From contig SAIW01000011.1 of NCBI GenBank assembly GCA_004028795.1, positions 62,001 through 126,000 on the forward strand: DNA of 64,000 nucleotides, read 5' to 3'. Position 1 is the stretch's first letter. Every line of letters starts with the position of its first letter. Positions 5,980 through 64,000 of this stretch are shown here, piece after piece. The stretch is from Chitinophagaceae bacterium. GTDB taxonomy: Bacteria > Bacteroidota > Bacteroidia > Chitinophagales > Chitinophagaceae. A program made the position numbers and the translations under genes. The notes beneath the pieces were generated by a model. It was given only the letters and a program-made list of their open reading frames with translations. It did not search any database and was not told the DNA's origin.

Positions 5980-7050
5980 ATGAAAAAAATACTCGTTGCA
6001 TTCAGCATTATGCTTTCAGTTGTAAGCATTCAATCACAAACAATACAGGTATTAACAGAAGGTACTAAAACATCCATTCGCGGATTAAATGTAGTTAATG
6101 ATAATATCTTTTGGGCAAGCGGAAGCAGTGGCAAGGTTGCTAAAAGTACCGATGGCGGTAAAACCATTCAATGGCAACAGGTAAAGGGTTATGAGAAAAG
6201 AGACTTCAGAGATATTGAAGCATTTGACAGTAACACAGCTATTATTATGGGTGTTGATTGGCCTGCCATTATTTTAAAAACAAATGACGGTGGCAAAAAC
6301 TGGTATAAAGTTTTTGAAGATAGCACCAAAGGAATGTTTTTAGATGCGATGGTATTTGATAAGGTAAATCCATATCTTAATATTAATGATACTGCAAATA
6401 TTGAAGTTTTTGGAATTGTAATTGGGGATCCGATAAATGGTAAACCTTTTTTTGCAGTAACAACCAATGCAGGAAGTACATGGAAAAAGCCAATTGAAGA
6501 TAAAAAAGTGAAATTTCTTTCATTAAATGAAGGCGAAGCCTTTTTTGCATCAAGCGGTACCAATATTAAGATTACTGACTACAATGATTTTTCTCCGCCA
6601 TTTGCTGTTACCGGAGGAAAACAATCTCGGTTAATAGATTTTCTATATCATAAAGATTATGGAAAACTTCCCATTATTCAAGGAAAAGAAAGCACCGGTG
6701 CTAATTCAATTGACGTTAATAATAAAACAAAAAAGGGAGTTGTAGTTGGTGGCGATTTTGCCAATGATAAAGACACTACATTAAATTGTGTATTAATCAA
6801 TTTCAATTCAATTAAACCGCAATTCACTCATCCTCAAACACCACCACACGGTTATCGCTCCTGTGTTATTTATTTAACTGATAAAAAATTAATTACCTGC
6901 GGTACAAGCGGTATTGATATCAGTAACGATGGTGGTAAAAACTGGCAATTAATTTCCAACGAAAGTTTTCATGTTGTTCAAAAAGCTAAAAATGGCAGTG
7001 CTGTTTTCCTGGCAGGTGGTAAAGGAAGAATTGCCAAAGTAATTTTTTAG
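5980..7050 (+). CDS. Secreted BNR/Asp-box repeat (Ycf48-like) protein
   Basis: A 356-residue exported protein. The N-terminus MKKILVAFSIMLSVVSIQSQ is a signal peptide. Several Asp-box motifs are visible (STDGGKTIQWQQ, TNDGGKNWYKVF, SNDGGKNWQLIS), as in sialidase-type and Ycf48-type beta-propellers. The fold is therefore probably a periplasmic or surface beta-propeller; the ligand is unknown. It lies 9 bp after the NamZ-like gene. Glycosidase catalytic residues cannot be assigned, so I would not call it a sialidase. Confidence 0.75.
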   Translation: MKKILVAFSIMLSVVSIQSQTIQVLTEGTKTSIRGLNVVNDNIFWASGSSGKVAKSTDGGKTIQWQQVKGYEKRDFRDIEAFDSNTAIIMGVDWPAIILKTNDGGKNWYKVFEDSTKGMFLDAMVFDKVNPYLNINDTANIEVFGIVIGDPINGKPFFAVTTNAGSTWKKPIEDKKVKFLSLNEGEAFFASSGTNIKITDYNDFSPPFAVTGGKQSRLIDFLYHKDYGKLPIIQGKESTGANSIDVNNKTKKGVVVGGDFANDKDTTLNCVLINFNSIKPQFTHPQTPPHGYRSCVIYLTDKKLITCGTSGIDISNDGGKNWQLISNESFHVVQKAKNGSAVFLAGGKGRIAKVIF

Positions 7051-47485: not shown

Positions 47486-50400
47486 ATGATTGCAAATCTT
47501 TTTATAAGAAGGCCGGTTACGGCAATAGTAATATCAATTGTTATTGTTTTATTAGGTGTATTGTCTTTACTGAATTTGCCTATAAGCCAATATCCTGATA
47601 TTACTCCACCAACAGTACAAATAACAGGAAGCTTTAGTGGTGCAGATGCACAAACAGTTGAACAAACTGTTACTACACCCATTGAAACGCAGGTAAACGG
47701 AACACCGGGTATGGCTTATATGCAAAGCAACAGTACCAGCGATGGAAGAACCACTATTAATGTAATTTATAATGTTGGTGCAGATGTAAATATCGGAGCA
47801 TTAGATGTTCAAAACCGTGTAGGTATTGCTACACCTCAATTACCTGATGATGTAAAAAGGTTAGGCTTAACAACACGTAAACGTAACCCAAGCATTTTAA
47901 TGTTAGTGGCAATGTTTTCGCCTAATGCAACACATGGTGTTACTTTCTTAGATAACTACACGAATATTTTTGTAAAAGATGCATTGCTGCGTGTAAAAGG
48001 AGTGGGAGATATTTTTACAAGAGCAGATGATTTCAGTATGCGTGTTTGGTTGCAGGCAGATAAGTTGGCACAATTAGGTTTAACGGCTAATGAAGTATTG
48101 GCTGCATTGCAGGAACAGAATTTACAGATTGCTGCGGGGTCAGTCGGTGCTCCACCGCAAAATTCAGTGCAGGCTTTTGAGTATAATGTTTTTACCAACA
48201 GCAGATTAAATACGGAAGAACAATTCGGAAATATTATTGTTCGTTCACGCCCGCAGGATGGTTCAATTGTTTACCTGAAAGATGTTGCCAGAATTCAATT
48301 AGGTAAATTCAGTTATGCAAGTAATTCTTTTGTTGATGGAAAAAGAGCTTCTTATTTATTAGTATATCAGGCACCGGGAAGTAATGCATTAGAAACAGCA
48401 GATGGTGTTTATAAAGCAATGGATCAATTAAAAAAATCTTTTCCTAAAGATGTTGATTATATCGTTCCTTTTGAATCTGTTTCAGTAGTAAAAGTTTCTA
48501 TTGATGAAGTAGTAACAACATTAGTAGAAGCATTAGGGTTAGTTGTGTTGGTTGTGTTTTTATTCTTACAAAATTGGAGAGCTACATTAATTCCTGTTTT
48601 GGCTATCCCCGTTTCAATTATCGGAACATTTGCTTTTTTTGTGCCTCTTGGTTTTACGGTTAATACATTAACCATGTTTGGTTTTGTATTGGCTATTGGT
48701 ATTGTGGTAGATGATGCAATTGTGGTAGTTGAAGCAGTACAACATTATATTGACCATGAAAAACTAACACCTAAAGAAGCAACAGCCAGAGCTATGAAAG
48801 ATATATCGGGCCCGGTAGTTGCCATAGCCTTAATTCTGGCGGCAGTGTTTGTACCTGTTGGTTTTATTCCGGGTATTGTAGGAAGGTTGTATCAACAGTT
48901 TGCTATTACTATTGCTATTTCAGTTTTAATATCTGCGTTTGTAGCATTGTCATTAACACCTGCATTATGTACCATGTTATTAAAGCCAATGCATTTAGAT
49001 AATAAGTCGAGGGGCATTAATAAATTTTTCTATAAGTTTAATCAATGGTTTGAAAGAACATCAAACAATTATAAAAGCGGAGTTGGTAAAGCCATTAAAG
49101 CTGCACCTTATGCATTAGTATTATTAGCGTGTTTATTTGTTGGAACAGGTATTCTCTTTAAAAATAAACCTACAGGTTTTATTCCTACAGAAGATGAAGG
49201 AAGAATTTATATAACTTTTGAATTGCCTGAAGCATCATCAACTGCACGCAGCCTTGATTTACTGAATAAAGTAATGGCTACTGTAAAAGATGTTCCTGGT
49301 GTAGGCCACTTTGCAGCATTAGGCGGTTTGAATGTGGTAACCTTCGCAACAAAATCAAACAGCGGCACCATCTTCTGCCAATTAAAACCGTGGGATGAAA
49401 GAAAAGATAAAACACAACAACTACAGGCAATAATTGCAGAAATGCAAAAACGTTTTGCCGCATTTAAAGAAGCCAATATAAGAGTGATACAACCGCCTGC
49501 CATACCGGGTTTGGGACAAACAGCAGGTTTTACTTTTGAGTTGGAACAAAAAGAAAGTATTGATGATATTAAAGCTTTTGAAAAAACAGTAAACACTTTT
49601 GTTGCAGAAGTAAATAAACGCCCTGAAATAGCATCCGCCTTCTCATACTTTACTGCAAGAACACCGGGCTATCAAGTTGATGTTGACAGAGAGAAATGTA
49701 AAAAATTAGGAGTGTCTTTAGCTGATGTTTATAATACTATGCAAACATTTTTAGGCAGCCGATATGTAAATGATTTTACTGCTTACGGAAGAAACTTTCA
49801 CGTGGTGGCACAGGCAGATACGCTGTTCAGAGGAGATATAAAAAACTTAGAACAGTATTATGTTAAAAACCAGGCCGGCACTATGCTACCGCTTAGTACA
49901 CTAATCAACTATAAATTAGTGGAAAGTGCCCCGTTAATTACACATTATAACCTTTTCCGTACTGCCGAAATTAACGGTACACCAAAAGAAGGTTATAGTA
50001 GTGGTCAGGCAATTCAGGCATTAAGAGAAGTAGCTGCCAAAGTTTTACCCGCAGGCTATGGCTATGAATTTTCAGGATTAAGCAGAGAAGAAATTAATGC
50101 AGGCTCAAGTACAGTTTATATTTTTTCATTATCTATTTTATTTGTGTTTTTATTCTTAGCTGCTTTGTATGAAAGTTGGGCTGTACCTTTCTCGGTATTA
50201 CTTTCAGTACCTGTTGGTGCGTTTGGTGCCATATTAACATTAACTTTTCTCCCTAAATTAAGTAACAGTGTATATGCACAAATTGGTTTGGTAACCTTAA
50301 TAGGTTTGGCAGCAAAGAATGCTATTTTAATTGTTGAATTTGCCAAAGAACGTGTTGATAGTGGTATGGAAATTATTGCTGCAACATTAGAAGCTGTTAA

Positions 50401-50653
50401 ACTTCGGTTACGACCGATTATCATGACTTCATTAGCATTTATATTAGGTGTATTGCCATTGGCATTTGCAAGTGGTGCAGGGGCTGTAGCCCGCAGCACT
50501 ATTGGGTTTACAGTGTTAGGAGGTATGCTGGCTGCAACTTTGTTGGCAATATTTATAGTGCCTGTTTTATTTGTAGTAATTTCAAAAATTGCTTACAATA
50601 AAAAGAAGTTGGCAGAGTTGGAGAAAATAAAAGAGCATCATTTAGATTATTAG
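47486..50653 (+). CDS. RND multidrug efflux pump, HAE1 family (AcrB/MexB-like)
   Basis: A 1055-residue inner-membrane proton/drug antiporter with the usual 12 transmembrane helices and two large periplasmic loops. FIRRPVTAIVISIVIVLLG, LPISQYPDITPPTVQITGSF, GADAQTVEQTVTTPIE and GTPGMAYMQSNSTSDG are classic. GFVLAIGIVVDDAIVVVEAV has the paired acidic residues for proton transfer, and GLAAKNAILIVEFAKE the partner Lys. It is full length and last in the operon, so the window encodes a complete tripartite pump. No regulator gene is adjacent. Confidence 0.95.
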   Translation: MIANLFIRRPVTAIVISIVIVLLGVLSLLNLPISQYPDITPPTVQITGSFSGADAQTVEQTVTTPIETQVNGTPGMAYMQSNSTSDGRTTINVIYNVGADVNIGALDVQNRVGIATPQLPDDVKRLGLTTRKRNPSILMLVAMFSPNATHGVTFLDNYTNIFVKDALLRVKGVGDIFTRADDFSMRVWLQADKLAQLGLTANEVLAALQEQNLQIAAGSVGAPPQNSVQAFEYNVFTNSRLNTEEQFGNIIVRSRPQDGSIVYLKDVARIQLGKFSYASNSFVDGKRASYLLVYQAPGSNALETADGVYKAMDQLKKSFPKDVDYIVPFESVSVVKVSIDEVVTTLVEALGLVVLVVFLFLQNWRATLIPVLAIPVSIIGTFAFFVPLGFTVNTLTMFGFVLAIGIVVDDAIVVVEAVQHYIDHEKLTPKEATARAMKDISGPVVAIALILAAVFVPVGFIPGIVGRLYQQFAITIAISVLISAFVALSLTPALCTMLLKPMHLDNKSRGINKFFYKFNQWFERTSNNYKSGVGKAIKAAPYALVLLACLFVGTGILFKNKPTGFIPTEDEGRIYITFELPEASSTARSLDLLNKVMATVKDVPGVGHFAALGGLNVVTFATKSNSGTIFCQLKPWDERKDKTQQLQAIIAEMQKRFAAFKEANIRVIQPPAIPGLGQTAGFTFELEQKESIDDIKAFEKTVNTFVAEVNKRPEIASAFSYFTARTPGYQVDVDREKCKKLGVSLADVYNTMQTFLGSRYVNDFTAYGRNFHVVAQADTLFRGDIKNLEQYYVKNQAGTMLPLSTLINYKLVESAPLITHYNLFRTAEINGTPKEGYSSGQAIQALREVAAKVLPAGYGYEFSGLSREEINAGSSTVYIFSLSILFVFLFLAALYESWAVPFSVLLSVPVGAFGAILTLTFLPKLSNSVYAQIGLVTLIGLAAKNAILIVEFAKERVDSGMEIIAATLEAVKLRLRPIIMTSLAFILGVLPLAFASGAGAVARSTIGFTVLGGMLAATLLAIFIVPVLFVVISKIAYNKKKLAELEKIKEHHLDY

Positions 50654-54390: not shown

Positions 54391-56283
54391 ATGAATTGGC
54401 CTTTACATAATACAAACGCAGCTGCCTATGCAGATAAGCTGAGTTTTGTATTAGAACATATTAATAAAGCTGTTCTACTTATTGATGGCAACAATAAAAT
54501 AGAATATGTAAACGAAGGCTTTTGCCATTTATTTAACCTGCAGCAAACACCCTCTCAACTTACCGGCACCAACTCAACTGAATTATTGCAACAGCTTAAT
54601 AAGCAAATAGCCGAGCCTGAAAACATTATTGATTTTAATACAGAGATTAAGGAAAATAATTCAAAGCTTTATAATGCCGAACTGGTTTTAAATAACGGCA
54701 AAATAATTTCAGTTGATTATATACCTATGAGCAAAGAACAAGCTCATTTATGGTTATATAAAGATGTAAGCGATTATAAGCAATTAATTAATAAAAGCGA
54801 GCAGCAGCAGGCATTCTACGAAAAAGTATTAAATAATATACCTGCCGATATTACCATTTTCGATGCCAATCATAAATATCTTTTTGCCAATAAAAATGCT
54901 GTTAGCAAAGAAGATATGCGTAAGTGGTTAATTGGAAAAGATGATTTTGATTACAGTTTATCTAAAAGTGAAGGTTTTGAAAAAGCTATTTCAAGACGCA
55001 ATTATTTTGAGCAATCGCTGCAAACCAATCAAACAGTTCAGTTTGAAGAAAAGCATGTGAATAATCAAGGCAGAGAAATTTATAATCTTCGCCATTTTTA
55101 CCCTTATTTTAACGCTGATAAAAATGTAGAGTTTGTTGTTGGCTACGGAGTAGATATTTCTAAAATAAGGCAAAACGAAAAATTATTAGTGCGAAGTATT
55201 GAAACATATCAAAAATTATTGAACGATTTAGATGAAGCTGTTTTTATTATTGATGAAAATAATAAACTGCAATATGTAAACCCTTTGTGGGAAAAGGTTT
55301 GGGGTAAATCTTATTATGAAAGTGTGGGAGAATCTTTAGAAAAATTTTTCAGCGAAGAAAATAACCGCTTATTAAAAACGGACATAGCCGAATTAAGAAG
55401 CAATACAGAAACAGATAAAATAAAACGTGTAATTAAAGTAGTTTTTGATAAGGGCGATGAAAAACATTTTCAATATTACTTACGCAGATTTTATAGTTTA
55501 TACAAAGAGGAGTTAAGAGTATCAGGCTTTATGGTGGATATAACCGACCAGATAAAAGCTCAGGAAGAATTAATGAAAGTGCTGGAAAAAGAAAGACAGC
55601 TGAGTGATATGAAAACCGTTTTTGTAAACATGGTTTCGCATGAGTTAAGAACGCCGCTGTCTGTTATACAATCCAGTGCAGAAATATTAGAATTATTACA
55701 GCAAGATAAAACAACTGCTGAAGAAGAATTACAATCGTACACACAACGCATAAGCGAAGAAGTAAAACGTTTAAAAGATTTAATGGATGAGTTACTGTTG
55801 GTAAGCAGAATTGAAGCCAATAAAGTAAACTTTAACCCAAGTGAAGTTGATATGATTGTGTTTATACAGGAGTTAATTACTCAGCAGTATAATCCCTGGA
55901 AAGACGGACGCAGCCTGCATTTGGAAACAAGAGGGGCAAACAGATTGGTAAAGGCAGACAGGTTTATGATGCGTCATCTATTAAGTAATGTAATTGATAA
56001 TGCTTTTAAATATTCGCCCAATACCCCTGAGCCGAACATTCGTATTTTCTTTGGTAATGATAACTGGAGTATTGTATGCAGAGACTTTGGTATCGGTGTA
56101 CCGGAACATGATTTAAACGATTTAGGAACATCATTTAAAAGAGGAGCTAATGTTGGCGATATTCAGGGTACAGGTTTGGGGTTGGTTGTGGTAAGATACT
56201 TTGTAGAAAAACATAATGGTAAAATTGATTATCAAAGTACAGAAGGGCAGGGAACAGTGGTTAGATTACATTTTCCTTATTGA
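54391..56283 (+). CDS. PAS-domain sensor histidine kinase
   Basis: A 630-residue cytoplasmic kinase with no membrane helix. Three PAS domains are visible (near residues 15-120, 140-260 and 270-390): AVLLIDGNNKIEYVNEGFCH, ADITIFDANHKYLFANKNAV and AVFIIDENNKLQYVNPLWEK. The phospho-acceptor His417 is in VNMVSHELRTPLSVI. The ATPase shows NVIDNAFKYSPN, CRDFGIGVPEHD and GTGLGLVVVRYF. It would sense a soluble signal through PAS and pass phosphate to the flanking regulators. Confidence 0.93.
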   Translation: MNWPLHNTNAAAYADKLSFVLEHINKAVLLIDGNNKIEYVNEGFCHLFNLQQTPSQLTGTNSTELLQQLNKQIAEPENIIDFNTEIKENNSKLYNAELVLNNGKIISVDYIPMSKEQAHLWLYKDVSDYKQLINKSEQQQAFYEKVLNNIPADITIFDANHKYLFANKNAVSKEDMRKWLIGKDDFDYSLSKSEGFEKAISRRNYFEQSLQTNQTVQFEEKHVNNQGREIYNLRHFYPYFNADKNVEFVVGYGVDISKIRQNEKLLVRSIETYQKLLNDLDEAVFIIDENNKLQYVNPLWEKVWGKSYYESVGESLEKFFSEENNRLLKTDIAELRSNTETDKIKRVIKVVFDKGDEKHFQYYLRRFYSLYKEELRVSGFMVDITDQIKAQEELMKVLEKERQLSDMKTVFVNMVSHELRTPLSVIQSSAEILELLQQDKTTAEEELQSYTQRISEEVKRLKDLMDELLLVSRIEANKVNFNPSEVDMIVFIQELITQQYNPWKDGRSLHLETRGANRLVKADRFMMRHLLSNVIDNAFKYSPNTPEPNIRIFFGNDNWSIVCRDFGIGVPEHDLNDLGTSFKRGANVGDIQGTGLGLVVVRYFVEKHNGKIDYQSTEGQGTVVRLHFPY

Positions 56284-56367
56284 GTTACTGGTTACCGGTT
56301 GCAAGTTGCAAGTTTTGAAGCATTAATCCGACATTTAAAAATCATACATCATTCATCATACATTGCA

Positions 56368-56730
56368 ATGTCTACTGTTTTAGTAATAGAAGATGAAGAA
56401 TTTCTTCGCAATAACATTGTAAAAATGTTGCAGTTAAAAGGCTACACTTGTCATGCTGCTGTTAACGGAATTGATGGCGTTGCCAAAGCCAAACAGATTT
56501 TACCCGATATTATTGTAAGTGATGTTATGATGCCCGGTATTGATGGCTTTGAGGTATTGGCACAATTAAAAGCAGATACTGCCACACAAAATATTCCTTT
56601 TATTTTTCTTACTGCAAGAGCCGATGCCATTGATAAAAACCGCGGAAACGATTTAGGAGCCAATAAATATTTAACCAAACCATTTTCTATTGTTGATTTA
56701 TTGGCTGCGGTTAAAAGTTTGATTGGTTAA
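56368..56730 (+). CDS. Single-domain (CheY-like) response regulator
   Basis: A 120-residue receiver domain without an output domain. VLVIEDEEFLRNNIVKML has the acidic pair, Asp52 in VSDVMMPGIDGFEV is the phospho-acceptor, and Lys in YLTKPFSIVDLL is conserved. ATG 56368 is used; the frame is open upstream to a TTG at 56299, through repetitive sequence. It may be a phosphate sink or relay for the kinase upstream. Confidence 0.9.
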   Translation: MSTVLVIEDEEFLRNNIVKMLQLKGYTCHAAVNGIDGVAKAKQILPDIIVSDVMMPGIDGFEVLAQLKADTATQNIPFIFLTARADAIDKNRGNDLGANKYLTKPFSIVDLLAAVKSLIG

Positions 56731-56758
56731 GTTGTTGCCATGAAAGATAAACGTAAAA

Positions 56759-56773
56759 GAGTGCGACGCAACA
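56759..56773 (-). repeat. Dispersed repeat family A, copy 8 (core only)
   Basis: On the minus strand it reads TGTTGCGTCGCACTC. The flank GTATTTCATGGCATC recalls that of the copy at 16742. Confidence 0.65.
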
Positions 56774-56872
56774 GGTGATGCCATGAAATACCAAAGCCTG
56801 TTACCCAAACAAATTTCCTCTTAACGTTTTCATTAGCTGCTTTGCTGTTAATTTGCAGCATTATTTGTACTA

Positions 56873-58924
56873 ATGCATTCATTGTTACTCAGTAAAAAAA
56901 TAGGCTGTTTATTTATTGCAACTTTTGTTGTTGTGTTTGTTCGGGCTCAAAGAACGTTGGAAACAACTTCAGGCTCTACCAATAATACGGGCATTACTTA
57001 CGATAGAAACGGCAACCCTATAAAAAAGAAAAGTGGCAATGATTCTTTGCAACACAGAGATAGATATGCAGATTCTATTACCATTTTTTATCGCTTTTAC
57101 GATTCTACCAGAAACAGAACTTTAGATTCTTCTATTAATGATTTTACTACCCGTTTTCCTTTACAATACTGGATGAATGATTTAGGGAATTTCGGAACCG
57201 CTTCCCGTTCGTTAGTTTTTACGCCTGTACTAAAGTCGGGGTGGGATGCAGGTTTTCATCAATATGATGCCATTAATTATTCGATTGAAAACTCAAAGTT
57301 TTTTCAAACAACAAGACCTTATACAGAGCTTTCTTATCTATTGGGAAGCAAGAGTGAACAGATGGTAAATTTATTGCATACGCAAAACCGTAACCCGCGT
57401 TTCAACTTTGCAGTAGAATACAGATTTTCTAATTCTCCCGGATTATACAGATTACAGAATGCAAGTTTGAATAACATTAGGTTTACTTCACATTATCAAA
57501 CAGCTAATAAACGGTATGAAAGTTTTTTTGTGATTGTAAGTAATAAAAATGCTGCTTCAGAAAATGGCGGCTTGCAAAGTTTATCTCAACTAAATAGCTT
57601 AACTCTTGGTGACCCTTTTGAGGCTTTATCAAGATTAGGATTAGCAGGCACACAATCCCGCAATCCTTTCAATACAACAGTTAATACAGGAAATATTTAT
57701 CAAACTTCAACTATTCTTTACCGCCATCAATATGATTTCGGACAGAAAGATTCTATTGTTACTGATTCATCTGTTATTAAATTATTTTATGCACGTTTAA
57801 GGTTTCAACATACTTTATCTATAAGTACGCATCTGTATAATTTCAGAGATGTTAATGCAGTTGATTCTAACTATTTAACTTATTTTAATTATCAAATACC
57901 GGCAACACCAACAATCGGAGTTTATGATACCATAAGCTTTAAAGAAAAATGGAGTATTGTTAATAATGAGTTCAGTATCATTTCTTTTCCGGAAAAAAAC
58001 AACCAAAGCCAGTTTTTTAAAGTAGGTGCAGCTTTACAGAATTTAAAAGGCACATTTGGAGATACTGCTGTTCATAATTTTTACAATGTTTATGCATTGG
58101 CTGAATATAGAAACAGAACTCGTAATCAAGTTTGGGATATTGAAGCAACAGGCAATTTGTATTTAACAGGAATGAATGCAGGTGATTATAATGCTTTTAT
58201 TAGCTTAAAAAGAAAATTAAGTAAAACAGTGGGCAACCTGCAATTGGGTTTTCAAAATGTAAACAGAACTCCTTCGTTCATTTTTAATCCGTTAACCACT
58301 TTCCCTATAAAAAACAAGCAAAGTTTTAATAAAGAAAATACAACAAGATTATTTGCTGAATATGAAAACCCAAAGCTTGCTTTTAAGTTAAGCGGAGAGT
58401 ATTATTTAGTAAGCAACTATGTGTTTATGGATAGCTTTTTTACTGCAAGGCAGGAAACAGGTTTGTTCAATGTATTACATATCAGTGCAGAAAAAAAGTT
58501 TCGTTTAACCAAATACATTAATTGGTATAGCGAATTGCATTTGCAGCAAACAACAGGCGATGCTGTACATGTACCATCTTTGCTAGCCCGCAACAGAATT
58601 GCTTTTGAAGGTAATTTCTATAAAAACTTATTTCTTTCAACAGGTGTTGAAATAAGATATTACAGCAATTATCAGGCAGATAATTATTCGCCATTTACAG
58701 GCCAGTTCTTTTATCAATCAACTTATACAACATCTAACAGGCCCGATGTAAATGCTTTTTTTCATTTTCGCATAAAAGGCTTTAAAGCTTTTATACGTGC
58801 TGAAAATATAAATACATTAATAGTAACTACTTCAGAACTTGGTAAGTATAATGTTAGCCCGCAATCTTATCCACATCAAACATTCTGGTTCCGTTTTGGT
58901 GTGTGGTGGAGTTTTGTAAATTAA
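56873..58924 (+). CDS. Putative porin (Porin_10 family) outer-membrane protein
   Basis: A 683-residue protein with a signal peptide (GCLFIATFVVVFVRAQ). After a charged segment rich in Asp, Ser and Arg it has many alternating hydrophobic strands ending FWFRFGVWWSFVN, as expected of a beta-barrel with a C-terminal aromatic residue. PLQYWMNDLGNFGTASRSL and LSYLLGSKSEQMVNLLHTQN are recognisable features of the Bacteroidetes putative porin family. Its substrate is unknown. It is 58 bp upstream of the HYC_CC_PP gene on the same strand. Confidence 0.83.
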   Translation: MHSLLLSKKIGCLFIATFVVVFVRAQRTLETTSGSTNNTGITYDRNGNPIKKKSGNDSLQHRDRYADSITIFYRFYDSTRNRTLDSSINDFTTRFPLQYWMNDLGNFGTASRSLVFTPVLKSGWDAGFHQYDAINYSIENSKFFQTTRPYTELSYLLGSKSEQMVNLLHTQNRNPRFNFAVEYRFSNSPGLYRLQNASLNNIRFTSHYQTANKRYESFFVIVSNKNAASENGGLQSLSQLNSLTLGDPFEALSRLGLAGTQSRNPFNTTVNTGNIYQTSTILYRHQYDFGQKDSIVTDSSVIKLFYARLRFQHTLSISTHLYNFRDVNAVDSNYLTYFNYQIPATPTIGVYDTISFKEKWSIVNNEFSIISFPEKNNQSQFFKVGAALQNLKGTFGDTAVHNFYNVYALAEYRNRTRNQVWDIEATGNLYLTGMNAGDYNAFISLKRKLSKTVGNLQLGFQNVNRTPSFIFNPLTTFPIKNKQSFNKENTTRLFAEYENPKLAFKLSGEYYLVSNYVFMDSFFTARQETGLFNVLHISAEKKFRLTKYINWYSELHLQQTTGDAVHVPSLLARNRIAFEGNFYKNLFLSTGVEIRYYSNYQADNYSPFTGQFFYQSTYTTSNRPDVNAFFHFRIKGFKAFIRAENINTLIVTTSELGKYNVSPQSYPHQTFWFRFGVWWSFVN

Positions 58925-58982
58925 GCCGTTTAACAAATTTTTTGTTACATTCAATAATTTCAACGATAACTTTACACCCGTA

Positions 58983-59366
58983 ATGAAACGTATTATAGTA
59001 TTCATAATAACTGTTCTGTATTTCACTGTCAGCAGTGGTATGGTGGTTAGTATGCATTACTGTATGGGTAAACTAAAAACTACCAACGTTCAGCTTACCA
59101 ATAAAAAAGCCTGTTGCTGTAAAAAGGCTGATAGCAATAAAAGTTGTTGTAAAACAAAACATCATTTTGTTAAGTTAGAAGATAATCACAAAGCCTCTTA
59201 CGCAGATTTTAAAATTCAATTGCCTGTTACTGTTATAGAATCAGATTATTTTTTAGCAGAACAAAATAACATAATTAAGAAAAACCAAATTACTTACAGC
59301 CCTCATGCACCGCCTTTATTAAACGGGCAATCTACTTATCTGCTCAATTGCGTTTTCAGAATTTGA
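58983..59366 (+). CDS. HYC_CC_PP family protein
   Basis: A 127-residue exported protein. After a hydrophobic N-terminus it has SMHYCMGKL (the HYC motif, residues 25-27), the cysteine clusters ACCCKK and KSCCKTKHH (residues 44-61), and HAPPLLNG (the PP motif). The Cys/His content suggests metal binding, and the family is often near copper-related genes. It precedes the HMA-domain and TonB-receptor genes on the same strand, with 170 bp to the next, and is probably part of the same system. Confidence 0.85.
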   Translation: MKRIIVFIITVLYFTVSSGMVVSMHYCMGKLKTTNVQLTNKKACCCKKADSNKSCCKTKHHFVKLEDNHKASYADFKIQLPVTVIESDYFLAEQNNIIKKNQITYSPHAPPLLNGQSTYLLNCVFRI

Positions 59367-59410
59367 TTTTTTTATTTTGTACTAAGCTATAGAATACCTA
59401 TTTGGCTTTA

Positions 59411-59449
59411 GTTGCGTCGCACACTTGTGCGTTCTGTTCATTATTCAAC
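59411..59449 (+). repeat. Dispersed repeat family A, copy 9
   Basis: GTTGCGTCGCACACTTGTGC is followed by GTTCTGTTC and ATTATTCAAC, one of the most complete copies. The flank TACTAAGCT is shared with the copy at 28409. Confidence 0.83.
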
Positions 59450-59536
59450 TATAAATAAATACAACCGCCAACAAGGTTTTAACCGTTGTCGGGGTTCATC
59501 AAAACAAAATAATTCAAACAATTAAATTCATTCAAA

Positions 59537-59896
59537 ATGAAAACTCAATATATCTTATCAACAGTTATTGCATTAGTTATTGCTAATTTTTCTTTTGCTC
59601 AAAACGCAGTTAAAACAGACACCATCGCTGTAAACGGTAACTGCGGAAGTTGTAAAAAAAATATAGAAACTGCTGCAAAATCTGCCGGAGCTTCTTATGC
59701 AATATGGAATAAAGACACCAAACAATTAGTTGTAAAATATGCTGCCACTACTACGCCTTTAAAAATTGAGCAGGCTGTAGCTGCAAAAGGTTATGATACC
59801 AAAGATGTAAAGGCAACAGATGCAGCTTATAAAAAATTAGATGAATGCTGCCAATACGATAGAACAGCTTCTCCGGCAGTAAGTAAAAAACAATAA
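59537..59896 (+). CDS. Exported heavy-metal-associated (HMA) domain protein
   Basis: A 119-residue periplasmic protein. The signal peptide is ILSTVIALVIANFSFAQ. The HMA fold has VNGNCGSCKKNIETAA with Cys36 and Cys39 as metal ligands, then AIWNKDTKQLVVKY and AVAAKGYDTKDVKATD. A second pair, Cys104-Cys105, lies in LDECCQYD. The CxxC and CC spacing is almost identical to that in the N-terminus of the TonB receptor downstream, so the two are related modules. Copper or a similar soft metal is the likely ligand. Confidence 0.88.
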   Translation: MKTQYILSTVIALVIANFSFAQNAVKTDTIAVNGNCGSCKKNIETAAKSAGASYAIWNKDTKQLVVKYAATTTPLKIEQAVAAKGYDTKDVKATDAAYKKLDECCQYDRTASPAVSKKQ

Positions 59897-59913
59897 AGTT
59901 AAGTCAGGTATTT

Positions 59914-59950
59914 TCCTATGGAAGGGTTTAACGCTTCCATAGGTTATTAT
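59914..59950 (+). terminator. Hairpin between the HMA and TonB-receptor genes
   Basis: CCTATGGAAG pairs with CTTCCATAGG across GGTTTAACG and is followed by TTATTATT. The T run is weak, so it may only reduce read-through to the receptor gene or protect the upstream mRNA. Confidence 0.55.
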
Positions 59951-59988
59951 TCATGTTCAGAGAATATGCTTTGAAAAAATTATGAGCA

Positions 59989-62559
59989 ATGAAGTATTTA
60001 TATATGCTGCTCATTGGCTTCTTATGCTTTCATTTCACAATTGCCCAGTCAACAGAAAAAAATGATTCTTTTTTTGTTGCAGGTGTTTGTGAACAATGTA
60101 AAGCAAGAATACAAAACGCAGTAAAATTAAAAGGAGTAAGTAATGCTGTTTGGAATGTTGATAGCAAAATATTAAATGTTACTTACAATGAAAGCGTAAT
60201 TACACTCAATAAAATAAAAAATAAAATTCTGGCAGCCGGTCATGATTTGGAAGATAAAAAAGCAAAAGATATTATCTATAAACAACTGCCAAATTGTTGT
60301 CATTACAGAGAGTTGACTGTTAATGATGAGAAACAGCAAACAGTAAGTGATTCAACAGCTTCAATAACTATTAATAACGCTGAAACAATAAAAGGTGTGG
60401 TAGTAGAAGAAGATGCCAAAGGAAAATTTAATCCTCTGCAAAACGCAAGTGTATATTGGTTGGGCAGTGATAAAGGGGTAGTAACAGATAATTACGGAGT
60501 CTTCAACATTAAACCTATACAAAGCAATAATAAACTGATTGTTAGTTACACAGGTTATGTTTCAGATACTATTGATGTTGCAGATAAAAATGTTTTTAAA
60601 ATAGTGTTGGCTGCTAAGAAAAATTTCACTGAAGTAACGGTTAGTAGTAAAAGAAGAACAAGCTATGTTTCTTCTTTAGAAACCTTCAGAACACAGATAA
60701 TGACAGGAGGCGAATTACTGAAAGCAGCCTGTTGTAATTTGAGTGAAAGCTTTGAAACAAACCCTTCTGTAGATGTTTCTTATAACGATGCTGTTACCGG
60801 TTCAAAACAAATTCAGTTATTGGGTTTAAGTGGAAACTATAGTCAACTTACGGTTGAAAATCTTCCCGGCCCGCGTGGCTTGGCTACACCATTGGGATTA
60901 AATTCTATTGCAGGCCCGTGGATTGAAAGTATTCAATTAACAAAAGGTGTTGGCTCTGTTGCTAATGGTTATGAAAGTATTGCTGGGCAAATAAATGTTG
61001 AATTGAAGAAACCCGAATCATCAGAAAAATTATTAGCCAATGCATACGTAAATGATTTTGGTAAAACAGACTTGAATTTGAATGTATCAAAACGATTGAA
61101 TAAGAACTGGTCAACAGCTTTGTTATTGCATGATGATTTTTCTAATAATACTTCAATGGATGAAAACAAAGATGGTTTCAGAGATATGCCAACGGGTAAT
61201 TTATTCAGTTTAGTTAATCGTTATAAGTATGATAACAGCAAAGGCTTATTAGCACAAGTTGGTGTTAAAGCAATGATAGATGATAAGATTGCAGGCCAAA
61301 CAGCTTTTAACCCTTCTAAAGATAAAGGCACCACTAATGCTTATGGTGTTGGAATAAAAACAGAGCGTTATGAATTATTTGGAAAGCTGGGTTATGTGTT
61401 TCCTCAACAACGGTATAAAAGTGTTGGTTTGCAATTAGCTGCTATTAATCATCAACAAAATGCATACTTCGGCTTAACTGATTATAATGCAAAGCAAAAG
61501 AGTTTTTATACCAACTTTATTTACCAATCAATCATTAACACAACAGAGCATAAATTCAGAACAGGTATAAGCTTTAGTTATGATGATTATAATGAAATTT
61601 TTAAAAATCAATTGTACACAAGAACAGAAATTGTTCCCGGTGCTTTCTTTGAATACACATTTACGCCAAGTGATAAATTCAGTGCTGTAGCGGGTTTGCG
61701 GGTAGACAATAATAATTTATTCGGTTCATTTGTTACTCCGAGATTAAATATTCGTTATGAACCTTTTAAAGGGACAGTAATAAGAATGAGTGCCGGAAGA
61801 GGACAACGCACTGCCAATATTTTTGCAGAAAATACAAGTGTGTTTGTTAGTGCAAGGCAAGTAAATATTATTAACCCCCAGGCAGGAAAAGCTTACGGCT
61901 TAAACCCCGAAGTGGCTTGGAATAAAGGCATTACAGTTGATCAAAAATTTAAACTGTTTTCAAGAGATGCAACTGTAAGCATTGATTATTTCAGGAATGA
62001 TTTTACTAATCAGGTGGTAACAGATTTGGAGTATGCCAGAGCAATAAGGTTTTATAACCTGAACGGACCATCTTATTCCAACAGTTATCAGATAGAATTA
62101 AATGCAGAGCCCTTGAAAAAGTTTGAAGTGAGATTGGCTTACCGATATTTTGATGTTAAAACAACTTACAACAACGTGTTGTTAGAAAAACCATTGTTGG
62201 CACCGCACAGAGCTTTCTTAAGCTTAGATTATGCAACAACCAACGCATGGAAATTTAATTATACGGTTACTTATAATGGTGTGAAAAGATTACCGAATAC
62301 AAGTGCTAACACAACCCAATTTCAATTAGCTAATTACTCGCAGGATTATGTGCTGATGAATGTACAGGTTTCAAAATCTTTCGGTAAAAAATATCCGATG
62401 GATGTTTATGTTGGAGCAGAAAATATAACCGGCTTTACGCAACCAAATGCAATTGTTGCTGCCAATCAACCATTCGGGCAATACTTTGATGCATCCATGA
62501 TTTGGGGACCAATAACAGGAAGAATGTTGTATGTTGGATGGAGATTAAAATTGAAATAA
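59989..62559 (+). CDS. TonB-dependent receptor with an N-terminal HMA domain
   Basis: An 856-residue outer-membrane receptor. The signal peptide is MLLIGFLCFHFTIAQ. Residues 25-105 form an HMA-like domain with VAGVCEQCKARIQ (Cys34, Cys37) and PNCCHYRE (Cys103, Cys104). A carboxypeptidase-regulatory domain follows (IKGVVVEEDAKGKFNPLQNA). The plug has KAACCNLSESFETNPSVDVS and QIQLLGLSGNYSQLTVENLP. The remainder is a 22-strand barrel ending GWRLKLK. It probably imports a metal or metal complex, most likely copper, using TonB energy. The HMA part is paralogous to the protein encoded upstream. Confidence 0.88.
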   Translation: MKYLYMLLIGFLCFHFTIAQSTEKNDSFFVAGVCEQCKARIQNAVKLKGVSNAVWNVDSKILNVTYNESVITLNKIKNKILAAGHDLEDKKAKDIIYKQLPNCCHYRELTVNDEKQQTVSDSTASITINNAETIKGVVVEEDAKGKFNPLQNASVYWLGSDKGVVTDNYGVFNIKPIQSNNKLIVSYTGYVSDTIDVADKNVFKIVLAAKKNFTEVTVSSKRRTSYVSSLETFRTQIMTGGELLKAACCNLSESFETNPSVDVSYNDAVTGSKQIQLLGLSGNYSQLTVENLPGPRGLATPLGLNSIAGPWIESIQLTKGVGSVANGYESIAGQINVELKKPESSEKLLANAYVNDFGKTDLNLNVSKRLNKNWSTALLLHDDFSNNTSMDENKDGFRDMPTGNLFSLVNRYKYDNSKGLLAQVGVKAMIDDKIAGQTAFNPSKDKGTTNAYGVGIKTERYELFGKLGYVFPQQRYKSVGLQLAAINHQQNAYFGLTDYNAKQKSFYTNFIYQSIINTTEHKFRTGISFSYDDYNEIFKNQLYTRTEIVPGAFFEYTFTPSDKFSAVAGLRVDNNNLFGSFVTPRLNIRYEPFKGTVIRMSAGRGQRTANIFAENTSVFVSARQVNIINPQAGKAYGLNPEVAWNKGITVDQKFKLFSRDATVSIDYFRNDFTNQVVTDLEYARAIRFYNLNGPSYSNSYQIELNAEPLKKFEVRLAYRYFDVKTTYNNVLLEKPLLAPHRAFLSLDYATTNAWKFNYTVTYNGVKRLPNTSANTTQFQLANYSQDYVLMNVQVSKSFGKKYPMDVYVGAENITGFTQPNAIVAANQPFGQYFDASMIWGPITGRMLYVGWRLKLK

Positions 62560-63339
62560 TTATTTCTTCTTTTTTCCCCAGTTAATTCTTCTGCCAACTA
62601 ACATTTTAAAAACAAAACCTTCAGTAGCAGGTGTTAAGCCCCAACCGGGACCGATATTCAGTTCCCATTGGGGCGAACCTGTTAAATCGTATGCTAAATA
62701 AATAGCATGTGATTGGTCTGATAATTTAGCGAAATTATTTATGGGACCCTGACTTCCATAATATTCAATTCCTAAAAATGCTTTTTTAAAGAATTGATAA
62801 GATGCTTTAATATTCGGTTCAAAAACAGGAGTGTGGCCGCCATCAACACTTTGTAAAGCAATACCTAATGTTGGGTTGAATGACGCGTAAAACTTACCCC
62901 ATGTTTTATCAATAATCGGTCTCACTTCTACACTCCATGTTTGATCAGAATATTCAGGGCGTTGATAACCAACTTCTGCTGAAAGACTTATACCAACAGG
63001 TAAATGCCAACTTGCAGGAGCCATAATTCTGGGGCGGATATGTGTGCCTACAAATTGATAACCGTAAGGCGATGTGTAATTACTGAACAAATAAAAACCA
63101 ATTTCAAAATTGTTGGTTACACCTGTTGTAATTTCTAATGTTTCATGTAAAGCATGGTATGAAGGTCTTACACCTTTTACAAAATCTTTTTCACCAATAA
63201 AAGTATAGTTGCTGTGTAATTCAAAAATAGTTGATTTGGGAGCTTGCGTTTGTGAACCGTAGACTTGTATTTCGTAATTATCCTGTGCAAAAATGTTAAT
63301 TGAAAAAATTAAAAAATTGAGTAGTAAAATTTTCTTCAT
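62560..63339 (-). CDS. Exported beta-barrel-like protein
   Basis: A 259-residue protein with a signal peptide (ILLLNFLIFSINIFAQ). The rest is rich in alternating strands and aromatic residues (IFELHSNYTFIG, FEIGFYLFSNYTSPYGYQF, KASYQFFKKAFLGIEYYGSQ) and ends FKMLVGRRINWGKKKK. It is probably an outer-membrane barrel of unknown role. ATG 63339 is chosen over one eight codons upstream. Its stop codon abuts the convergent TonB-receptor stop with no gap. Confidence 0.7.
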   Translation of the reverse strand: MKKILLLNFLIFSINIFAQDNYEIQVYGSQTQAPKSTIFELHSNYTFIGEKDFVKGVRPSYHALHETLEITTGVTNNFEIGFYLFSNYTSPYGYQFVGTHIRPRIMAPASWHLPVGISLSAEVGYQRPEYSDQTWSVEVRPIIDKTWGKFYASFNPTLGIALQSVDGGHTPVFEPNIKASYQFFKKAFLGIEYYGSQGPINNFAKLSDQSHAIYLAYDLTGSPQWELNIGPGWGLTPATEGFVFKMLVGRRINWGKKKK

Positions 63340-63363
63340 GTTGAATTTATTGATACAGTACAA

Positions 63364-63377
63364 GAGTGCGACGCAAC
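63364..63377 (-). repeat. Dispersed repeat family A, copy 10 (core only)
   Basis: On the minus strand it reads GTTGCGTCGCACTC, upstream of the barrel gene. Confidence 0.6.
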
Positions 63378-63484
63378 ATAAGTATAAACAAAGAAACTGT
63401 AGCTTGGTTCAAAACAAATCGATTAAAATTTGCTTACAGAAAATACAAATAACACATAAAAATTCAGCGTTATTACCGAGGGAT

Positions 63485-64000
63485 TTATTTTTCAAAATAT
63501 ACCAAACTTCCGCCAACCCATTCTTTGTCTTTATTATAACGCACACCAATCATTTTACCCTTGCTTAAACGTGCTAAATTGTTGGTGGCAACTGGTCTTG
63601 CTTCTCCATCTTTCCAGAAATAAAATATGCGAACTTCTGCTTTGGCAGGAATATCAGGCGTTGTAATAACATCGGCGTACTTTACTTTCTTTTGTAAAAT
63701 CCAGTTATGCGGGTCGGTAATTCTTTTAATATCATCTTCAGTTACATCAATTACCACACCCTGCCCTGCAAAAGAAAACAAAGGTTTTAAAACATAATTC
63801 TCTAAATCGGCGGGCAGTGTTTTTATTTCATCTAAAAAGGTTGTTTCAGGAATGTATTTATGTTTTATGAAAGGTATAGTGTACTTACTTATTTTGTAAA
63901 ACCAGTTAGGGTGGGGCACCCACTCAACATTTAATTCTTCTAATAAAATTTTTCCTTTGTCTTGTATTTCTTTTGATTGTTGTTGAAGGTCATCAAAAAT
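63485..64000 (-). CDS. ATP-grasp-like protein (partial, 5' end outside window)
   Basis: The frame is open from the stop at 63485 to the window edge, giving the last 171 residues. A GTG at 63919 is in frame but lies mid-protein: the residues before it (GKILLEELNVEWVPHPNWFY) read as coding. NYVLKPLFSFAGQGVVIDVT and WILQKKVKYADVITTPD, followed by AEVRIFYFWKDGEARPVATN, resemble the ATP-binding and C-terminal parts of ATP-grasp enzymes. The reaction is unknown. Annotation should start from the neighbouring sequence. Confidence 0.65.
   Translation of the reverse strand: MFDDLQQQSKEIQDKGKILLEELNVEWVPHPNWFYKISKYTIPFIKHKYIPETTFLDEIKTLPADLENYVLKPLFSFAGQGVVIDVTEDDIKRITDPHNWILQKKVKYADVITTPDIPAKAEVRIFYFWKDGEARPVATNNLARLSKGKMIGVRYNKDKEWVGGSLVYFEK

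Follow-up and report, generated by a model that had tools for sequence, protein, structure and literature searches.

In the present study, we analysed a 64,000-nucleotide (nt) stretch of the genome of Chitinophagaceae bacterium (NCBI GenBank assembly GCA_004028795.1, contig SAIW01000011.1, positions 62,001 to 126,000 of the forward strand; hereafter the window, whose own numbering is used throughout) around a tandem of three genes. The open reading frame (ORF) list places on the + strand, one behind the other, a HYC_CC_PP protein, an exported HMA-type protein and a TonB-dependent receptor composed of an HMA-type module, a CarbopepD domain, a plug and a barrel. An earlier note, made from the sequence alone, had read this set as a probable copper system with CxxC...CC layouts in both HMA-type proteins and a further CC pair in the receptor plug; the composition of the set was confirmed by the ORFs and by the scores of NCBIfam NF047658 and Pfam, and the Cys layouts were found as described. 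Since each ORF was started at the first ATG, GTG or TTG, some N-termini are too long.

The first gene (58983..59366, +; 127 residues; NF047658 53.8 bits, cut-off 28) encodes a signal helix, a small Cys-rich unit (Cys 27, 44-46, 55 and 56), a little-structured stretch, Pro110-Pro111 (59310-59315, +) and a 16-residue tail. A 170-nt spacer (59367..59536, +) leads to the gene of the free module (59537..59896, +), a protein of 119 residues that is predicted to be made with a signal-like N-terminus and in which the CxxC is formed by Cys 36/39 and the CC by Cys 104/105. A predicted 10-pair hairpin (59915..59943, +; z -4.2 for 59894-59992) lies between this gene and that of the receptor (59989..62559, +; 856 residues). 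The receptor carries an HMA-type module at residues 23-106 (60055..60306, +; Cys34/37 and Cys103/104), CarbopepD_reg_2 at residues 134-218 (60388..60642, +; 43.0 bits, cut-off 32.2), a plug at residues 235-333 (60691..60987, +; Plug 25.3 bits, cut-off 23.9; Cys248/249 at 60730-60735) and a barrel match at residues 368-813 that includes His381 (61090..62427, +; TonB_dep_Rec_b-barrel 82.8 bits, cut-off 27); its Cys positions are 13, 34, 37, 103, 104, 248 and 249.

The HMA-type module, free and fused

Several observations characterise the module. First, the Pfam family HMA (cut-off 24.8 bits) matches residues 28-86 of the receptor with 40.3 bits, and the receptor model (mean predicted local distance difference test, pLDDT, 85) shows the HMA beta-alpha-beta-beta-alpha fold at residues 23-82, the CC pair lying in a tail modelled with less certainty. 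The CxxC motif and the ferredoxin-like fold of PF00403 are both present, the fold having been modelled for the receptor copy only, and the top PDB matches of this copy are HMA domains of copper ATPases (E 4.4e-05). Second, the free module and the receptor N-terminus are 41% identical over 108 residues (E 3e-25, in a single comparison) and share the CxxC...CC, consistent with the earlier suggestion that one module occurs in both forms. Third, C36, C39, W57, G85, D87, C104 and C105 (free numbering) are invariant in 16 of 16 aligned modules, which suggests that the CxxC...CC layout is more than chance. By sequence and model, the protein is a TonB-dependent receptor into which an HMA-type module has been incorporated. 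CopZ and the HMA domains of copper ATPases have the same fold and CxxC; the signal-like N-terminus, the extra CC tail and the fusion to a TonB receptor set the present modules apart from them. FpvA-type receptors carry a periplasmic signalling domain ahead of the plug, and the receptor of the window likewise has an additional periplasmic domain in this place, which is of HMA type instead of the sigma-signalling type.

The two modules of the window are not each other's nearest relatives, an outcome that the earlier note had named as speaking against its reading. A tree of 67 distinct modules (E threshold for inclusion 1e-10) places the fused module with four fused modules of other genomes (support 99/96) and the free module with the free module of a congener (support 100/93). 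In an enlarged tree of 146 rows, in which 20 of 138 inner branches are starred, the free copy belongs to a 28-member set (support 95) in which 26 modules are free ones, and the fused copy has no starred set; the alignments comprise 122-124 columns. Because the two modules fall into different clades, duplication at the locus, which the earlier note had considered, is not supported and was rejected, and the free and fused modules are old paralogues. Apart from the receptor, only two P-type ATPases, both encoded on other contigs, match HMA above the cut-off in this genome. Contig C18 of the same genome encodes a protein distantly related to the module (L006, 1486-1893), which is HMA-like, 135 residues long and has a signal-like N-terminus, a CxxC and a YKKLPP..C tail.

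The distribution of the pair was followed in 99 Bacteroidota genomes, which were searched by plug and barrel only, so that the loci were not picked by the module. An orthologous receptor is present in 27 of them (E up to 1e-144; next matches from 6e-90), and the module is fused to it in five, encoded upstream in nine and encoded downstream in eight, or 22 of the 27; the genome of the window is one of the five fused cases and has the free copy upstream in addition. Much of the phylum has retained receptor and module as a pair. In two genomes (G157 and G237), the receptor bears two tandem modules, and a small Cys-rich protein ending IWQPPK.. takes the place of HYC_CC_PP. Receptors with two tandem N-terminal modules were recorded at L213 (5605-8265) and L214 (3592-6261).

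A second set, the named loci, was obtained from a GTDB genome scan that gave at least 585 relatives, and it is biased, as the best 80 by likeness to the receptor of the window were kept. These best 80 of at least 585 come from several families of Bacteroidota (including Chitinophagaceae, Sphingobacteriaceae, Cyclobacteriaceae, Flavobacteriaceae, Prolixibacteraceae, Saprospiraceae and Spirosomataceae) and one Ignavibacteriae metagenome-assembled genome; N-terminal fusion is found in 33, an unfused receptor with the module gene upstream in 30 or downstream in 14, and no module in the range looked at in three, one of which (L115) has a module further upstream. Within the family of the window, 139 of 147 genomes match a module profile built from two rows (E 0.001 or lower), a count in which distant HMA domains are possibly included, and module ORFs are mostly of three sizes, about 110-250 (free), 780-920 (receptor-fused) and 275-330 residues. 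Six loci of the last class were fetched, and the one tested (L068) is a module joined to DUF3347 (87.6 bits, cut-off 25.5). The named and family locus sets overlap, as in L089 with L053 and L103 with L049. In one member of the family (L067), the module is attached to the C-terminal end of the receptor; the upstream gene order matches N-terminal fusion, and the downstream order matches C-terminal fusion. The module is therefore a recurrent plug-in, at either receptor end, doubled, or joined to DUF3347 or CusB. The CusB case (L205, 1763-3397) is an adaptor of CusB type that contains a heavy-metal binding domain and carries the module at its C-terminus, where Pfam HMA gives 24.7 bits against the cut-off of 24.8.

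A quick receptor tree of 79 rows, which left out L114 (shorter than 700 residues) as well as L101, L126, L147, L155 and three paralogues (motif not matched by the script), requires five changes for N-terminal fusion, at least four of them forced by well-supported branches, so that module and receptor have apparently been fused or separated several times. Recurrent fusion of adjacent genes is classically taken as evidence that their products act together. The fusion or adjacency in 22 of 27 receptors supports a hand-over of metal between receptor and chaperone; the direct transfer proposed in the earlier note fits these data, and its duplication component does not. In all 50 aligned receptors, with or without a fused module, plug Cys248/249 and barrel His381 are invariant, and the plug pair is thereby likewise more than chance. 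An ACC-type plug motif was found by a strict script pattern in 23 of the 27 orthologous receptors, the four misses (L163, L164, L175 and L183) being perhaps due to that pattern or to the limits of the sequence stretch.

HYC_CC_PP and the known nascent copper sensors

In the 99 phylum genomes, HYC_CC_PP was detected above the cut-off in 27 and at E up to 0.001 in 30, and it lies upstream of the orthologous receptor, on the same strand and within 3 kb, in 18 of 27 genomes and at most four genes upstream in 59 of the 80 named loci. Among 60 aligned members, the mean column identity is 21%, and yet C27, C55 and C56 are invariant and C44, P110 and P111 nearly so. In a set of 87 distinct members from 92 proteins (without the three-member cluster 63), a Pro-Pro pair stands within the last 25 residues of 78, and A, S or G precedes the pair in 52 of 79 proteins. 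Spacing was analysed on 77 of the 87, picked for having the C44, C55, C56 and P110-type residues aligned; in these rows, the stretch from C56 to P110 measures 55.2 +/- 1.3 residues (53-60) despite being the least conserved of the protein (13% mean pairwise identity), and the C44-C55 stretch is more variable in length (11.6 +/- 2.5). An unaligned count gave a CC-to-PP distance of 54-59 in 73 of the 78 having both, and of 29-34, 61 or 85 in the other five. In the 80-locus set, a Pro-Pro pair in the last 25 residues characterises 57 of 64 HYC-type ORFs versus 13 of 398 other ORFs of 90-200 residues, and three of those 13 (L122, L127 and L152) are Cys-rich, stand directly before a module or receptor and were missed by clustering. 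A looser look at the same loci found no small Cys protein upstream in 11, where six receptors start within 1.2 kb of the edge of the sequence stretch, and one lacking the Pro-Pro pair in 16.

These features suggest that HYC_CC_PP is perhaps a regulator rather than a carrier. The conserved Cys and Pro-Pro in an otherwise divergent protein, the length kept between them without sequence, the enrichment of the pair and the upstream gene position are not what would be expected of an ordinary periplasmic metal-binding protein. Nevertheless, this simpler explanation is a serious contender to which we assign rather less than an even chance, as the signal helix, the invariant Cys, the partly kept tail (the pair lies about 18 residues before the end) and the nine of 87 members without Pro-Pro in the last 25 residues would all agree with it. 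The structural model (pLDDT 70, predicted template modelling score 0.40) consists of a signal helix and strands at 20-37 and 56-63, with low confidence and no strand beyond residue 63, and a fold search with it returned nothing at E up to 0.001.

CruR is an exported DUF2946 protein of 145 residues with a CXXC and a RAPP held 45 residues apart, and in the cruR-bfrG-bp2921 operon of Bordetella pertussis, where cruR comes first, copper relieves translation arrest, leading to Rho-dependent termination before the TonB transporter gene (PMC9426467). The set of the window resembles cruR-bfrG(crtA)-bp2921 in that a small exported Cys protein with a C-proximal Pro-Pro, and with a kept Cys-to-PP distance, directly precedes a copper TonB-dependent transporter or its counterpart (PMC9426467, PMC12914433). 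Unlike in CruR, whose RAPP is three residues from the end, the pair of HYC_CC_PP lies further inside and is preceded by A, S or G, and the HMA module of the window has no reported equivalent in the excerpts on the Bordetella operon (PMC9426467, PMC12914433). In CutF, Cys and C-terminal proline-rich motifs are required for copper-dependent production of CutO; in the survey of CutF-like proteins, many members came from Bacteroidota, TonB-like proteins were frequent neighbours, and the criterion was a Pro-Pro in the last 15 residues (PMC9973294). Like cutFOG of Rhodobacter capsulatus, HYC_CC_PP operons are headed by an exported Cys protein of fewer than 150 residues with a proline motif (PMC9973294). 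The HYC_CC_PP protein of the window is exported, is shorter than 150 residues and has a Cys motif and a same-strand gene behind it, but its Pro-Pro at 110-111 of 127 lies outside the last 15 residues, where only 8 of 87 HYC_CC_PP proteins have one. DUF2946 (PF11162) is not the family concerned: the protein of the window had no Pfam match at E up to 1, DUF2946 is absent for the 60 members among the matches listed (25 of 32 families), and in the 99 phylum genomes it occurs in one above the cut-off and in four at E up to 0.001. Upstream ORFs with RAPP or RGPP precede TonB receptor genes in Gram-negatives generally, with Bacteroidota among the groups lacking them before copper genes according to the excerpt (PMC12992588), and proline-ended arrest peptides precede sec genes in Bacteroidota (PMC10987492). 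By sequence, HYC_CC_PP resembles CruR and CutF in layout, with no detected homology.

We therefore tentatively suggest, at a little short of even odds, that HYC_CC_PP is the Bacteroidota counterpart of CruR and CutF, a protein in which a copper-binding Cys unit about 55 residues ahead of a Pro-Pro pause would switch module-receptor and CusA operons, the controlled receptor bearing its own metallochaperone, which is re-used at either receptor end, doubled, on DUF3347 and on CusB. If so, a named but unexplained family found in 30 of 99 sampled genomes would be a metal switch, and its rule would be a Cys unit, a linker of fixed length and Pro-Pro.

Small proteins with terminal Pro-Pro were also seen in other settings. 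In cluster 12 (L068, L069, L071, L072 and L073), located before module-DUF3347 genes, all five proteins close with PPK.. inside their final five residues, and those of cluster 16 (L041, L058 and L060), located before CusA-like genes, end FQPPR.. in 2 of 3, the pair of L058 lying further in.

The probable metal, copper, and the direction of its movement

The metal is suggested by the neighbours of the receptor in relatives. Behind the receptor of a congener (L041) stand a short ORF and then CusA (TIGR00914 1186.9 bits, cut-off 701); CusA/CzcA models do not tell metals apart. A copper-type ATPase stands directly behind the receptor in L131 (593.7 bits) and L058 (609.5 bits; TIGR01511, cut-off 397), and L107 carries MbnP (140.7 bits, cut-off 27) and a CCP_MauG protein 5' of the receptor, with the same clusters in L132. 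An HMA-MauE-type cluster (tested member L115) occurs in 8 of the 80 named loci. MbnP and MauG-type genes are copper-limitation genes of methanotrophs. On the basis of CusA, the copper ATPases and MbnP near the receptor and of CusB joined to the module, copper is the likeliest metal, as the earlier note had supposed, even though nothing within the window names the metal. TonB receptors import, and uptake is therefore favoured, while CusA and the copper ATPases as neighbours leave room for detoxification too.

Two side observations were made in the fetched loci. A CusA-type RND (resistance-nodulation-division) permease is encoded as two adjoining ORFs in L198 (4723-7895; TIGR00914 profile positions 1-424 and 430-1041), and clustering or likeness in BLAST points to similar pairs in L075, L077, L202 and L210. 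Near module genes lie AraC-type regulators whose N-terminal stretch contains CxxC or CxRC (L054 4853-5416, L070 7051-7608 and others of cluster 8), the one of L054 matching HTH_18 and HTH_AraC, with no HMA match.

Outer-membrane copper acquisition has been described as poorly characterized (PMC12914433). We propose, with a probability of about 0.5, that the locus is an outer-membrane and periplasmic copper-handling set that is TonB-dependent, has a tethered chaperone and is perhaps under CruR/CutF-like control. First, copper, perhaps chelated, would enter via the TonB-driven barrel, whose fold was recovered in the model. Second, the conserved thiols of plug Cys248/249 and of the tethered module, Cys34/37 and perhaps Cys103/104, would meet the copper on the periplasmic side. 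Third, thiol exchange might pass it to the free module, in keeping with the kinship and repeated fusion of the modules, and the free module would carry it onward, the tethering keeping the ion from being free in the periplasm. Fourth, the predicted hairpin at 59915-59943 may set a difference in dosage between free module and receptor. Finally, in the nascent HYC_CC_PP, metal on the Cys unit near the ribosome exit could alter the pause at Pro-Pro and so set the expression of the downstream genes, as its layout would allow. TonB receptors, HMA chaperones and nascent copper sensors have each been described before, and it is their combination that is new; no description of an HMA-receptor fusion or of HYC_CC_PP was found in the open-licence PMC literature. 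The nearest known receptors are OprC of Pseudomonas aeruginosa and the OprC-like receptor of Bizionia argentinensis, a member of the Bacteroidota with HMA-domain proteins, both TonB-dependent copper receptors (PMC11213822). With a chaperone both tethered to the receptor and present as a free twin, the hand-over of a toxic ion would become directly testable using two small proteins.

Several results weigh against this proposal. The free protein scores 21.3 bits with HMA, below the Pfam cut-off, and the module is absent within 2 kb of the receptor in 5 of 27 genomes. The CxxxM-HxM site of OprC is not in the receptor of the window, which contains neither CxxxM nor HxM, and no HMA-receptor pair is named for OprC or Bizionia in the excerpt of PMC11213822. 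Foldseek matched the receptor model to TonB receptors of many substrates with no substrate preference (OprC at rank 50, ZnuD at rank 11, FpvA also among them), and assignment of the substrate by fold fails for this reason. No copper gene stands beside the set in the window, and the copper-type ATPases of the same genome are on other contigs. The RND gene at 47486-50650 was considered and rejected as copper efflux; it is of multidrug type by score (RND_permease_1 1279.8 bits, cut-off 1250, versus CusA/CzcA 364.1 bits, cut-off 701.45). In 9 of 20 loci, most of them fetched for having HYC_CC_PP without an adjacent receptor, a CusA-like gene comes immediately after HYC_CC_PP, in one case (L200) confirmed by the family model (746.6 bits, cut-off 701); a position ahead of CusA-type efflux genes misfits a simple uptake regulon. 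The occurrence before import- and export-type genes implies either that the sign of the response differs among operons or that the receptor is part of the response to excess copper.

The latter possibility, copper detoxification, would have receptor and module act in the copper-excess response, the receptor clearing or sensing copper-loaded ligands and CusA and the ATPases performing export. It would explain the CusA and ATPase genes behind the receptor in L041, L131 and L058, the module on CusB in L205 and the HYC_CC_PP-CusA order; however, it is at odds with the established import by TonB receptors, with the MbnP and MauG-type genes of L107 and L132 and with the many receptor loci among the 80 named ones that have no visible efflux gene, and we regard it as unlikely. 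The same machinery might instead serve another soft metal such as zinc, or be of mixed use. CxxC HMA domains bind several metals, and the absence of a copper gene from the window and the match to ZnuD would agree with such a use, but the neighbours in relatives are of copper type, with ATPase-IB1_Cu above the cut-off in L131 and L058, as well as MbnP, and we consider this improbable. It is very improbable that the CxxC and CC pairs, instead of being metal sites, act in redox chemistry or folding and that the module aids disulfide handling at the receptor, since thioredoxin-like genes near module or receptor in seven fetched family loci (cluster 5; representative L050) and in 6 of the 80 named loci (cluster 14; representative L087) are set against 74 named loci without the gene of cluster 14, the HMA fold of the receptor model and the joining of the module to CusB and DUF3347.

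RNA features and neighbouring genes

Rfam gave no match in 56000-64000, and promoter and terminator scans remained at chance level. The stable hairpin sits between the module and receptor genes and not behind HYC_CC_PP, where the RNA fold has a z of -1.6 (59364-59500); in the congener L041, a hairpin of unrelated sequence lies at the same place (about 6377-6414, z -3.5). A test aimed at a Rho-type bubble with C over G, like that of cruR, showed C exceeding G toward the end of HYC_CC_PP genes, and the C-G difference at -80, inside the gene, dropped from 0.093 to 0.006 once Pro codons were masked. A small C-over-G excess of 0.04-0.05 persists in the spacer, with none behind free module genes.

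The HYC_CC_PP gene of the window is directly preceded by that of a Porin_10 protein (56873..58924, +; 266.5 bits). Counting the window, Porin_10 is the gene immediately ahead of HYC_CC_PP in 10 distinct fetched family loci and is a common companion of it in the family; the gene maps of L050 and L054 each carry both units, with two HYC_CC_PP genes apiece. This suggests that two units meet in the window, Porin_10 - HYC_CC_PP - free module and HYC_CC_PP - module-receptor. Eight copies of a dispersed repeat around GTTGCGTCGCAC(A/T)CTT were observed in the window with up to one mismatch, versus 0.09 expected (1180, 4108, 16741, 28409, 42321, 56761, 59411 and 63366), and the copy at 59411-59422 lies in the spacer between HYC_CC_PP and the free module. 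On the other side of the receptor, a convergent gene of 267 residues (62560-63363, - strand) has no Pfam or NCBIfam match, and a homologue (cluster 15) follows the receptor in one further family locus among those fetched, L057.

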